From Nitrosopumilaceae archaeon (lineage in GTDB: Archaea; Thermoproteota; Nitrososphaeria; Nitrososphaerales; Nitrosopumilaceae): a stretch of DNA of 64,000 nucleotides. The position numbers and the translations under genes are program-made. Below the pieces are notes generated by a model. The model worked only from the letters and a program-made list of their open reading frames with translations, did not search any database and had not been told where the DNA came from. The stretch is taken from assembly GCA_028279545.1 (NCBI GenBank), contig JANQNN010000011.1:62001-126000 (forward strand), read 5' to 3'. This document shows, in pieces, positions 58,460 through 63,801 of this stretch (position 1 is its first letter; every line of letters starts with the position of its first letter).

Positions 58460-59197
58460 TTGATAAAAATTGAAAAAGAAAAAAATACTACATTTCTAAA
58501 TGCAGCAGTAACTGATTTTACAGATGCGATGGGATATTGTGAATACAAAATCCCACTTTCAATTCAAGGAATAAAGCCAAAACCTTCACAGTCTCTGATT
58601 TTAGGAACAAAAGCCCATCATGCAGAAGAAAAATATGAACAAGAGCATGTTGAATTAGAACCTGTTTTAATCGAAGAGATTGAAAATGAACAAAAAAACA
58701 TTGAATTTGCCCGTGAAAATGTTTACTCTACACTATCGATGCCTTTTGAATTCCCGTCGGAAAATGTTCTAGTTACACTTTCAGGGAGAATTGATAAAAT
58801 TAGCAGAGTTGATGGAACGCTAATAGTTCAAGATGATAAATTTGTTGGAAGACCTCAAACATATGACCAAAAAACACAACCATACCCTAGTCAACTATTA
58901 CAGGTTTTAGCATATCTAAATTCAGTTTATTCTGGAAAAAGAAAAAATGATCCTGAGGAGTGGTTTGAGATGCCACATAGTAGTAAGAAATGGGAATTAA
59001 GAATTTGCGATAGAAAAACTAGAGAACCATACAAAGTGTTTTCTGACTATCAAGATGCTTTTTCACTTCATTATTTGCATACATCACTTGAAAAATTTAC
59101 AACTATAGCACTTGATTTTATAGAACCTGAGCATCATAACAGTAAACCCAAATGTAATGCATGTAATTTGAAAAGTTTTTGTGAGTTTAGAATTTAA
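58460..59197 (+). CDS. Cas4/RecB-like PD-(D/E)XK nuclease with iron-sulfur cysteines
   Basis: The 245-aa protein has the order of Cas4/Dna2-type exonucleases: Cys27 in DAMGYCEYK, then LGTKAHHAEEKYEQ (motif with His), VTLSGRIDKISRV (catalytic Asp), LIVQDDKF (QxDxK-type) and SQLLQVLAYL. A terminal cluster Cys232, Cys235, Cys241 would complete a 4Fe-4S site with Cys27. It likely cuts single-stranded ends. No CRISPR array or other adaptation gene is in the window. The start is a TTG. Confidence 0.83.
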   Translation: MIKIEKEKNTTFLNAAVTDFTDAMGYCEYKIPLSIQGIKPKPSQSLILGTKAHHAEEKYEQEHVELEPVLIEEIENEQKNIEFARENVYSTLSMPFEFPSENVLVTLSGRIDKISRVDGTLIVQDDKFVGRPQTYDQKTQPYPSQLLQVLAYLNSVYSGKRKNDPEEWFEMPHSSKKWELRICDRKTREPYKVFSDYQDAFSLHYLHTSLEKFTTIALDFIEPEHHNSKPKCNACNLKSFCEFRI

Positions 59198-60987: not shown

Positions 60988-61431
60988 TTAAAATTTAGCA
61001 TGAAAAACAACATCCAAATTTTTCAATTTACCTAAAACTCCTGAAATATCAAGTTCTAAAATTTGATTCGAAGTTATATTTATGAACACAAATTTGTATT
61101 GCTTACGAAGAGATTGCCCAAGAATTAACTCTCGCATTGTTATTCCAAACCAGTATTTAGAAAAGCTTTTGTCTAAATCTCTATTTGTGGCCTTAATTTC
61201 TATTAGGGTAATTTTATCAAGTTTTTTTCGAACGTCATCCTCATCAGAGAAGTTAATTTTAGAATCTGTATAAACCAAGTCAAAGGCTTTTTTATGAAGA
61301 GCTTTTCCTTTTTTTGCAAATGCAACCATTAGATTAGATTTTTGCACATTGGTTAAATCAAAATAGCCAGATTTTTTTAGTAGTATATTTTTGCCTTTTT
61401 CTGCAATACTCATATCATATTTCTCAATCAA
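60988..61431 (-). CDS. PD-(D/E)XK-like protein co-transcribed with CARF regulator
   Basis: The 147-aa protein has Asp51 in KAFDLVYTDS and the pair Glu78/Lys80 in TLIEIKATNRDLD, the E-x-K half of a PD-(D/E)XK nuclease core. A further FVFINITSNQILEL strand follows. The assignment is moderate, since the fold is diverse. Its start lies 9 bp after the CARF gene stop, so both are in one transcript. ATG 61413 is an alternative start. Confidence 0.6.
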   Translation of the reverse strand: MIEKYDMSIAEKGKNILLKKSGYFDLTNVQKSNLMVAFAKKGKALHKKAFDLVYTDSKINFSDEDDVRKKLDKITLIEIKATNRDLDKSFSKYWFGITMRELILGQSLRKQYKFVFINITSNQILELDISGVLGKLKNLDVVFHAKF

Positions 61432-61440
61432 TCATCCTTT

Positions 61441-62178
61441 TTAAATTAAAAATTCTGCAGCATTTTTACCATCTTGAGTAATATTTATCCAGCGGGTCCT
61501 TCCAATCTTTTCTACTTTAACAAATTTCCATTGATTCTCAAGTGATGAAATTATATTTTTATCAAGACTTGCAAAAGTTGCCTGGCTTTCATTTTCAGCA
61601 TTGACAATGATTAATTTCTCATCTATTGCATATTTTGCCATATCTTTTTTAGACATTTTTCCACCTTTTTCATGTAATATTCGTAAAGCATCAATGTGTT
61701 TTTGTTCTGGTCTTTTAATCTCATAAGTTGGTACATCTTGAATCTCTTTAATTCCAGTTGATATTGGTTTTCCTGAAAATCCAAGATAGTCTTTTGCCTC
61801 TACATAAAATGGATGAACATTTTTTGAATCATTAAACATCATACAAGCCATCATACATGCTATTGCTTGAATTTTTGAACCTGACGCTAAATTTACATAA
61901 ATGATATTTCTTTTTTGATTTTCAATTATTTCTTTAACTGATTTTATAATATTGAAAAGATCTGACCTGTTGTGATACTCTTTTGCCACATCAATGTTTA
62001 ATTTTTTTAATTTCTTTGAAATGTTGTCATAAAATGACACTGCTTTATCTTCACTGGGATTATCATGAACCAGTAAACAAACTTTGTCTGCTCTCATTTG
62101 TTTTGCTGGAAGGACTATTCTATCAATTTCATACCCTACTGGGGCGATATGTACTCGTAAATTTTCAATTTCAGGCAT
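61441..62178 (-). CDS. CARF-domain winged-helix regulator (HFX_2341-like)
   Basis: Residues 8-130 form a CARF-type Rossmann domain: VHIAPVGYEIDRIVLPAKQM at the start, then IIYVNLASGSKIQAIACMMA with the NxxSGSK loop at residues 96-102, which matches the N-[TS]-G-[TS]-K ligand loop of CARF proteins. Residues 165-245 are a winged helix (HIDALRILHEKGGKMSKKDM, KVEKIGRTRWINITQDGK). CARF domains bind cyclic oligoadenylate or related nucleotides in CRISPR systems, but no CRISPR array is seen here. ATG 62178 is chosen since it begins the domain cleanly. Confidence 0.82.
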   Translation of the reverse strand: MPEIENLRVHIAPVGYEIDRIVLPAKQMRADKVCLLVHDNPSEDKAVSFYDNISKKLKKLNIDVAKEYHNRSDLFNIIKSVKEIIENQKRNIIYVNLASGSKIQAIACMMACMMFNDSKNVHPFYVEAKDYLGFSGKPISTGIKEIQDVPTYEIKRPEQKHIDALRILHEKGGKMSKKDMAKYAIDEKLIIVNAENESQATFASLDKNIISSLENQWKFVKVEKIGRTRWINITQDGKNAAEFLI

Positions 62179-62188
62179 AATAGTATCT

Positions 62189-62204
62189 ATAGTATGCATA
62201 CTAT
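62189..62204. promoter_or_regulatory. Perfect 16-bp palindrome between CARF and PIN genes
   Basis: ATAGTATGCATACTAT is its own reverse complement. It lies 10 bp upstream of the CARF-regulator ATG and 39 bp upstream of the PIN ATG. A TATA-like GATATATAAT at 62211-62220 follows, about 26 nt before the PIN start. The site is well placed to control both divergent transcripts. Confidence 0.75.
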
Positions 62205-62243
62205 GGTCATGATATATAATAATTTCTAAAACCAAGTATTACT

Positions 62244-62669
62244 ATGAATCAGCAAACAATCCAAAAAGTAGCACTTGACTCTTGTGTTGTAATTGATTTA
62301 ATTGAAAAACCAACATTTACACGAAGAGTCAGAAAATCTCTTAAAGGAAAATCAATACAAATAGTACTTTGCGATGTTGTATTAAATGAAGTTCAAAAAG
62401 TTAGGGGTTATTCACAAGAAAAAATAATCTCAAAAATTTCTGAAGGACTCAAAAGAAAAATTGTTATTGTCCCAGTAAATGATGAAGAAAAAATCCAGGC
62501 AAAACAAATCTCTAGTCAATTTCAGATCTGTCACAATGGTGATAACAAGATATTGGCAATATGTCAAGTCAAAAACTTCATTCTAGTGACATTTGATAGA
62601 ATGCTACGAAAAGCAAGTGAGTTTGTAGGAATTGCTGTTTTTCATCCATTATGTGTGGCAGGTATTTGA
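62244..62669 (+). CDS. PIN-domain ribonuclease
   Basis: The 141-aa protein has the four acidic positions of a PIN nuclease: VALDSCVVIDLIEK, LCDVVLNEVQKV, HNGDNKILAICQVK and LVTFDRMLRKASEF. PIN enzymes cut RNA and are common toxins or RNA-decay factors. No antitoxin of the usual type lies directly ahead, but the divergent CARF regulator could play that role. It begins a row of overlapping or closely spaced small genes. Confidence 0.85.
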   Translation: MNQQTIQKVALDSCVVIDLIEKPTFTRRVRKSLKGKSIQIVLCDVVLNEVQKVRGYSQEKIISKISEGLKRKIVIVPVNDEEKIQAKQISSQFQICHNGDNKILAICQVKNFILVTFDRMLRKASEFVGIAVFHPLCVAGI

Positions 62670-62670
62670 A

Positions 62671-62748
62671 ATGACAAACTACTATCCAAAAATTATTAGA
62701 GAATTTGAAGACCATGATGACCCAATGATCTATGGAGATGAAGTATGA
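62671..62748 (+). CDS. Tiny acidic protein, 25 aa
   Basis: The frame MTNYYPKIIREFEDHDDPMI ends YGDEV. It starts 1 bp after the PIN stop and overlaps the next gene by 4 bp, so it sits inside the operon. Very short; no family recognised. Confidence 0.45.
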   Translation: MTNYYPKIIREFEDHDDPMIYGDEV

Positions 62749-62921
62749 AATTTACAAGAATACTTCCAAAACCACTTGCTATTGCATGGCAAAAATATGA
62801 TATCAACAAGCTAGAATCATACTATGAATATCATCAAATGATTGCAGATAATTGCAAGATTCGTTTGGATGAGGGTAGACGTGAACTTGAAAGATTACGA
62901 GGTAAAAATCATGCGGTGTAA
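62745..62921 (+). CDS. Small helical protein, 58 aa
   Basis: MKFTRILPKPLAIAWQKYDI continues to a charged helix (RLDEGRRELERLRGKNHAV). It overlaps both neighbours, which argues for a real gene. No motif. Confidence 0.55.
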   Translation: MKFTRILPKPLAIAWQKYDINKLESYYEYHQMIADNCKIRLDEGRRELERLRGKNHAV

Positions 62922-63057
62922 AATTTGCCAAGTGCCACACAAGAATACTAGTAGATACCAGTTATGGTCAGAACAAAGAATATGTAGATTGTGTGGAGAA
63001 ATTTGTGAATACTTTTCCTGGAATGGAAATTATCTTATGGAGTATTGGAAAAATTGA
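62911..63057 (+). CDS. Small zinc protein, 48 aa
   Basis: MRCKICQVPHKNTSRYQLWS continues to RICRLCGEICEYFSW, with two CxxC pairs suited to one zinc. It overlaps the gene before it by 11 bp and the next by 13 bp. Confidence 0.6.
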   Translation: MRCKICQVPHKNTSRYQLWSEQRICRLCGEICEYFSWNGNYLMEYWKN

Positions 63058-63245
63058 ATGAAAAAATTTGTCCTAAATGTGGAAGTTCAGATTACTCTTT
63101 AATTTATCAAGGGAATGTAAATTCTGATAAAGATCAATATCGGGAATGCGGTGATTGTTCATATCGTTGTAAACAAGAAGATGATAAAATTGATTCTTTT
63201 GATTTTGATCAAGGATATAATTTAGATGAGGTTTATGATCAATGA
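63045..63245 (+). CDS. Small zinc-ribbon protein, 66 aa
   Basis: ICPKCGSSDYSLIYQGN and YRECGDCSYRCKQ make a CxxC/CxxC zinc ribbon of the transcription-factor type. The C-terminus is acidic (DDKIDSFDFDQGYNLDEVYD). The start is a TTG that overlaps the preceding gene. Confidence 0.6.
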   Translation: MEKLNEKICPKCGSSDYSLIYQGNVNSDKDQYRECGDCSYRCKQEDDKIDSFDFDQGYNLDEVYDQ

Positions 63246-63466
63246 ACCTTTCATCAAAAATTCTATTTTGGATATTTACAATAGCACTTGGATTTGTTAG
63301 TCCAGTGATCAGTTTCGTAATGATTGTTTTGTATTATTTGCCTGGATTGATTCAAGATATTTCTAAAAACAACACAGAATCAGCATGTGCCTATCAACCT
63401 GATTCCTCTCAAAATCAATCTAAAATTAAAGAATTTTCTAAAGATGTTTTAGAGGAATTTAGATAA
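63242..63466 (+). CDS. Small membrane protein, 74 aa
   Basis: One long or two short hydrophobic segments (residues 4-34: SKILFWIFTIALGFVSPVIS then FVMIVLYYLPGL) are followed by a polar tail. It overlaps both neighbours by 1-4 bp. No family recognised. Confidence 0.6.
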   Translation: MNLSSKILFWIFTIALGFVSPVISFVMIVLYYLPGLIQDISKNNTESACAYQPDSSQNQSKIKEFSKDVLEEFR

Positions 63467-63801
63467 TGTCACAAGAGCCACTAGATTCTAGAAAAAAAAG
63501 CCTTTCCGAGGCCTTTGTGAACTCTTTTGGAGGATATCCAATAGGATATGGTATTGGAATAGTGATTTTACCACTATCTGTAGGCTGGATTCAAGAGGAC
63601 CCATTTACAGTAAATTTGCTAATTACTTTGATTTATGCCTCGGCTTCTTTTGCCAGAAGTTACTTTTTTAGAAGAATTTTTGAAAAATTTGGATGGGATG
63701 ATAATTTCATTAGATTAGGTATGAGATTAATAATTTATACAAATATTAGAATTTCCAAAATGATTTACCTTATTACCCAGAAGGAGAAAATTACAGAATG
63801 A
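63466..63801 (+). CDS. Small two-span membrane protein, 111 aa
   Basis: SLSEAFVNSFGGYPIGYGIG, then IVILPLSVGWIQ and LLITLIYASASFARSYFFRR form two spans. From memory this layout resembles short membrane proteins of tailed phages. It overlaps the next gene by 4 bp. Confidence 0.6.
   Translation: MSQEPLDSRKKSLSEAFVNSFGGYPIGYGIGIVILPLSVGWIQEDPFTVNLLITLIYASASFARSYFFRRIFEKFGWDDNFIRLGMRLIIYTNIRISKMIYLITQKEKITE

Follow-up and report, generated by a model that had tools for sequence, protein, structure and literature searches.

A gene for a CARF-winged-helix regulator that faces a PIN-domain RNase gene and a conserved micropeptide across a shared operator recurs in ammonia-oxidising archaea, and this arrangement suggests a CRISPR-independent stress or antivirus switch. 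We consider it likely that the CARF protein is a stand-alone, ligand-sensing regulator that controls both its own gene and a PIN/micropeptide operon serving a stress or antiviral response.

In the window, i.e. the whole 64-kb stretch of DNA that was analysed, the CARF gene (61441-62178, minus strand, 245 aa, ATG start) and the PIN gene (62244-62669, plus strand, 141 aa, VapC-like, probably leaderless) face each other. The 65 bp between their start codons (ATG 62178 and ATG 62244) hold the palindrome ATAGTATGCATACTAT (62189-62204), which is perfect over 16 bp and unique within the window, and an AT-rich stretch, ATATATAATAATTT (62212-62225), whose sequence and geometry suggest a TATA element used in both directions. 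Relatives favour ATG 62178 as the CARF start, and the alternative TTG at 62235 would traverse the palindrome. An earlier note on this DNA had described the two genes, the palindrome and a PD-(D/E)XK-like gene (60988-61431, minus strand, 147 aa) 9 bp behind the CARF gene, and all of them lie where it placed them. It overlooked the micropeptide MTNYYPKIIREFEDHDDPMIYGDEV (62671-62748, plus strand, 25 aa), which is the more constant member of the module and a conserved partner of CARF. Five further plus-strand genes follow: a 58-aa helical protein (62745-62921) that overlaps the micropeptide stop (ATGA), two small zinc-ribbon-like proteins with cysteine pairs (62911-63057 and ~63054-63245), a 74-aa membrane protein (63242-63466) and a DUF7220 two-helix membrane protein (63466-63801), which is likely the end of the operon.

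The CARF-winged-helix identity proposed in the earlier note is borne out by two Pfam matches above cut-off: HFX_2341_N (PF19810; E=4e-37, 127.7 bits against a cut-off of 30) and the DUF6293_C winged helix (PF22665; E=4e-22, 79.2 bits against 27). PADLOC matches the protein to CARF3 (E=2e-75). Judged by its domains, it is a member of the HFX_2341/DUF6293 family, in which HFX_2341 acts as a CRISPR-independent global regulator (PMC11434293); it misses the cut-offs of the NCBIfam HFX_2341 equivalog (NF051475; 18.1 of 500 bits) and of Csa3 (TIGR01884; 33.6 of 60.2 bits). The best PDB match of its AlphaFold (AF2) model (pLDDT 90) is the Csa3-cA4 complex 6wxq (E=2e-8), with Csa3 2wte also among the best, and Csa3 binds cA4 (PMC8844856). 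In the loop N96-L-A-S-G100-S-K102, the N, G and K residues are invariant over 23 sequences; the N-x-x-x-G-S-K loop is kept, and binding of a cyclic oligoadenylate is putative.

Within our family sample (151 genomes, own genome included), CARF is present in 68 genomes and its distribution is patchy: nine further genomes of this genus lack it, and fragments of it occur in G061, G068 and G108. Some CARF genes in the loci that we read face unrelated genes, which speaks against the reading of a CARF-controlled PIN/micropeptide operon. A distant CARF clade has a changed winged helix and a different upstream palindrome, and it faces a ubiquitin-like/E2/E1-JAB operon. This is consistent with a joint change of protein and site, and with a role of the family in the control of defence-like operons. 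The distant CARF-winged-helix genes divergent to a ubiquitin-like/Prok-E2_E/JAB-E1 operon are those at L063, L064, L066 and L070. Haloarchaeal plasmids carry relatives that are 24-34% identical; the PIN arrangement is absent beside them in the three such plasmids that we read, and on a Natrinema zhouii plasmid (L176) ThiF and Mov34/MPN genes adjoin the CARF gene. The genome studied here also has a second CARF-winged-helix gene (L102, G000:C56:116183-116503) with an INITGGTK loop beside a type I restriction-modification locus; an operator of the 62180-62204 kind is absent there.

The earlier note had taken the palindrome as the shared site. The palindrome is indeed conserved, but the true conserved unit is a 25-bp operator (62180-62204) of three 7-bp half-sites (ATAGTAT, ATAGTAT and ATACTAT on the plus strand, spaced 9 bp), of which the palindrome comprises half-sites 1 and 2. 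Half-sites 1 and 3 form a further inverted pair, with 10-bp arms in two loci (L059 and L060). In relatives, the element reads ATAGTATGC-ATACTNTAN-ATACTAT and lies between the TATA box and the CARF start codon, and the AT-rich TATA element recurs at equal distance. A perfect 16-bp palindrome is unremarkable in 64 kb of AT-rich DNA, where about two are expected by our estimate, so it is the conservation of the element that exceeds chance: the element is present with 0-5 mismatches in 56 of the 58 promoters of close CARF relatives (the other two copies have 7), and shuffled promoters (n=2,900) never gave fewer than 6.

A scan of 40 genomes at up to 2 mismatches gave 32 sites in 22 genomes, with zero sites in the 8 CARF-negative genomes among the 40 and zero in a reversed-pattern control. 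At up to 3 mismatches, the own genome has no site besides 62180-62204. Where a site has no CARF gene on its CARF side, there is always a gene on the PIN side, in the same orientation and with 31-45 bp to its start codon. Such sites in trans include distal micropeptide copies with their own element (L097, L061, L184 and L185) and PIN-micropeptide operons 2-3 kb from CARF (L053, L263 and L265). The PIN genes that lie apart from CARF yet keep their own element are those of G118 and of two loci of Nitrosopumilus NIOZ-UU110.

The PIN protein matches Pfam PIN at E=4e-12, and its acids D12, E49, D100 and D118 are invariant among relatives. Its subfamily occurs in 8 of the 151 family genomes, and all 8 are CARF-positive, against a CARF base rate of 68/151. 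A GTDB scan with an alignment of close relatives yielded 16 PIN loci, which belong to Nitrosopumilus, Nitrosotalea, Cenarchaeum and unnamed Thaumarchaeota MAGs. With both searches merged, 13 of 16 full-length close PIN genes stand head to head with CARF, their start codons ~65-87 bp apart, and every copy apart from the two in Cenarchaeum carries the element (0-3 mismatches). The head-to-head pair is found in at least six genera. The proposal of a stand-alone CARF regulator and a PIN RNase with a shared operator is supported by their recurrence together in other genomes. Near a more distant PIN gene in G049 (31% identity), which lies where its contig stretch begins, neither CARF nor the element is visible. 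An apparent decayed PIN start is retained at L083; one MAG, Nitrosopumilus NIOZ-UU110, has at least five PIN copies (L261, L263, L265, L270 and L271), two of them with identical contig ends, which hints at recent duplication or mobility; and a single chromosome of the Cenarchaeum-like G023 holds two copies of the PIN-CARF locus (L056/L272), with a tandem GC-rich repeat separating PIN from micropeptide in one of them.

The micropeptide has the consensus [YF]PRIIREF-DD-DEPMIYG and sits right behind PIN in several other genera. In loci without PIN it takes the first position, and mostly 66 bp separate its start codon from that of CARF; this micropeptide-first arrangement holds for at least 36 of 58 CARF loci by script and ~42 on reading, the latter count including one genus with the shortened form VYPRVRSVFEN. 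A profile search found 27 strong copies in 25 genomes, all 25 of them CARF-positive, a co-occurrence with a chance probability of 1e-10 if the genomes were independent; their relatedness inflates this significance. Over 31 distinct cores the pN/pS is 0.09 and 77% of the differences fall at third codon positions, which indicates that the micropeptide is translated and conserved. By this measure of its coding sequence the micropeptide is under strong purifying selection, and it is apparently an undescribed conserved protein of ~25 residues.

These features bear on a toxin-antitoxin reading, in which a VapC-like PIN toxin is held in check by the micropeptide as antitoxin, and the CARF-winged-helix protein replaces the DNA-binding autoregulation of VapB. 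We regard this as possible but rather unlikely. In several genera the PIN and micropeptide genes abut or overlap and have one promoter in common, the CARF protein would bind DNA by its family, and there is no VapB-like gene beside PIN: Pfam found no VapB-type antitoxin with a DNA-binding domain next to it, only CARF upstream and the 25-aa peptide and small proteins downstream. However, the micropeptide is kept without PIN in most loci, as an antitoxin need not be, it has no DNA-binding domain, and the PIN protein misses the NCBIfam VapC equivalog cut-off (18.6 of 80 bits). From its domain and its neighbours, the PIN protein is VapC-like, but the unit fails as VapBC. The frequent survival of the micropeptide without PIN also counts against our preferred reading of a CARF-controlled stress or antiviral operon, because orphan micropeptides would need to work independently of PIN.

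The remainder of the operon recurs in part. Open reading frames similar to the 58-aa protein (TR-LPK-LA... / YLEYH...), which has no Pfam match, occur behind PIN or micropeptide in L259, L261 and L266; the second zinc-ribbon-like protein has relatives near CARF in 7 loci; the 74-aa membrane protein has relatives at the same operon position in L074, L075, L261, L262 and L264; and relatives of the last protein, which matches DUF7220 (Pfam E=3e-17), lie no more than 5 kb from CARF in 15 loci. We rejected the PD-(D/E)XK-like gene as a module member on its distribution: among the 151 genomes, homologues occur only in G024 and G069, and not beside CARF. The three-gene arrangement of the earlier note therefore stands for PIN and CARF, which recur together, but its nuclease-like partner falls outside the conserved set. 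For that protein, the Pfam NOV_C match (E=0.015) is below cut-off, D51, E78 and K80 are invariant in three sequences, and the highest-ranking fold matches in the PDB belong mostly to PD-(D/E)XK nucleases but do not reach significance (E>=0.035).

Scanning IMG/VR with the micropeptide revealed three contigs with TMFPRIIREFPDEKDEDPMIY or a near copy inside a protein of low complexity, amid repeated WExWLEK motifs; this protein is encoded immediately downstream of the terminase. The nearest relative of that terminase is the one of Halogranum tailed virus 1, so these contigs are probably archaeal tailed viruses. Six of 61 related contigs carry the motif or the variant TIPRTRSDFDDETHEDPYV, and a reversed-protein control on the 61 gave zero copies. 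By our estimate, a collection of this size could yield chance matches to the eight-residue core by itself, so it is the extended match between micropeptide and viral protein that counts. A WExWLEK-repeat protein lies directly downstream of the terminase large subunit in several IMG/VR tailed viruses (L275 5950-7155, L276 5257-6780, L279 and L280), and some copies contain the host micropeptide motif. A tentative idea, which we hold to be unlikely as a whole, is that the micropeptide is an antivirus peptide, i.e. a linear motif that copies the motif of the terminase-adjacent tailed-virus protein, competes for its partner and is released with the PIN RNase by a CRISPR-free CARF sensor, while elsewhere in the family the same regulator commands nurA-herA-mre11; on this idea it would act as an archaeal SOS-like regulator that senses nucleotides.

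The viral motif, the patchy distribution with absence from nine other same-genus genomes, and the relation of DUF7220 to the phage family phrog_4276 could also be read as marks of a viral or mobile-element cassette kept in a defence hot spot, with CARF as its repressor. This appears quite improbable: scans of IMG/VR with CARF and PIN and of a phage collection with CARF gave no match, and relatives of the 74-aa membrane protein were not found in viral contigs, these single-protein scans reaching close relatives only; an unsystematic look noticed no integrase or repeats flanking the module. A comparison with two same-genus genomes for the empty site of the insertion gave no clean junction.

Sensors with a CARF domain are commonly accounted for by type III CRISPR signalling, and gene switches of this kind mostly lie next to CRISPR. 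Cas10 is above cut-off in none of the 151 family genomes, own genome included, and Cas1, which is present in 44 of the 151, is absent from the own genome; the description of this locus as one without CRISPR is correct to the extent that no type III CRISPR was found in the own genome or family sample. An antiviral CARF role via type III CRISPR was rejected on the Cas10 result. An orphan Csa3, i.e. a CRISPR regulator that has outlived its CRISPR-Cas system and now lacks a coherent function, is very unlikely: CARF is modestly enriched with Cas1 (28 of 68 versus 16 of 83 genomes; Fisher p=0.004), but it is also present in 40 genomes without Cas1, no Cas10 exceeds the cut-off in the 151 genomes, and the loops are intact, the operator conserved and the non-cas targets conserved. 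This reading is largely refuted by the conservation of the targets. Other defence-related genes were seen in the same genome: a Cas4-like nuclease gene (phrog_1706 match; window 58460-59197), which adjoins the module in several genomes, with no Cas1 here; and, outside the window, helicase, PLD-like and DUF1998/DrmB-like genes that by eye look like a DISARM-type defence locus (G000 contig C26, 66053-72854 on the scale of the window; L103).

The element also precedes repair genes. In G069 and G074 it lies before a 27-30-aa leader open reading frame (SQIITLDKF...) followed by NurA-HerA-Mre11 (Pfam assignment made on G069), and in G124 before the leader and NurA, where the contig ends; in G085 it precedes an exonuclease and a UvrD-like helicase, and further sites precede small proteins. 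The loci with the operator before the leader and nurA-herA-mre11 are L223, L225, L226 and L229-L239. A strict genome-wide link between CARF and the nurA operator failed: the nurA element (1-3 mismatches) is present in six genomes without an HFX_2341-family protein (G104, G119, G061, G142, G037 and G035) and is missing in several CARF-positive genomes. Another factor may therefore read the site, or CARF was lost recently; the CARF fragments in three genomes suggest recent loss, and a second factor is possible. The persistence of the nurA element in these six genomes would fit a different, more widespread transcription factor that reads the element, with CARF, PIN, micropeptide and nurA operon all as targets and CARF not the regulator. 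We think this decidedly unlikely, since the 2-mismatch scan gave no site in its 8 CARF-negative genomes, micropeptide and PIN are always accompanied by CARF, another palindrome goes with the divergent CARF clade, and the fragments point to recent loss.

If CARF is the regulator, the mechanism that we infer comprises DNA binding, a ligand, a sign of regulation, an RNase activity and an antivirus role. The CARF-winged-helix protein would bind the three-half-site element at 62180-62204. Standard archaeal promoter spacing places the CARF transcription start inside this element, downstream of the TATA element, so binding would repress the CARF gene. Towards PIN, the element lies just upstream of BRE/TATA, and binding would set the expression of the PIN-micropeptide operon; archaeal activators bind the upstream side of BRE/TATA and a repressor could act there too, and activation seems slightly more probable than repression. 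Switching between the regulatory states would depend on a nucleotide-type ligand bound in the CARF pocket. The output would be the PIN RNase, optional across species, and the micropeptide, nearly always kept, in a stress or antivirus response.

In Sulfolobus, overexpression of Csa3b raises nurA-rad50-mre11-herA 2.4-3 fold (PMC7480081). The sites ahead of nurA-herA-mre11 would add a second archaeal phylum in which CARF regulators are linked to DNA repair. For the CARF protein described here the operator can be read, the regulon is narrow (one site in the genome) and the partner is fixed, with no type III system found, so that what CRISPR-less CARF regulators sense becomes directly testable.

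None of the papers in our literature search describes this arrangement; the principal paper on CARF classification lay outside that search, and a prior mention there is possible. Four known systems resemble it in part. VapBC type II toxin-antitoxin systems are likewise small autoregulated units whose PIN RNase has its catalytic acids intact; here, by contrast, there is no VapB, the regulator is a divergent CARF-winged-helix protein and the second gene encodes a 25-aa peptide that often survives without PIN. MM_0565 of Methanosarcina mazei is likewise a CARF-winged-helix protein acting on transcription, but it lies beside a type I-B CRISPR locus and has no described PIN or micropeptide partner (PMC7465815). 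Csa3a/Csa3b of Sulfolobus share the CARF and winged-helix domains and the link to nurA-herA-mre11-rad50 (PMC8844856, PMC7480081), but Csa3 lies in cas loci and responds to type III cA4, whereas no Cas10 was found in the genomes examined here. HFX_2341/Crr (DUF6293) of haloarchaea has the same Pfam families over its full length, lies away from CRISPR and is also present in CRISPR-less species, as here (PMC11434293). It is a vertically inherited global regulator with no described operator (PMC11434293), whereas the CARF protein of the ammonia-oxidising archaea appears as a local regulator of patchy occurrence that has a defined three-half-site operator and a fixed partner in divergent orientation.
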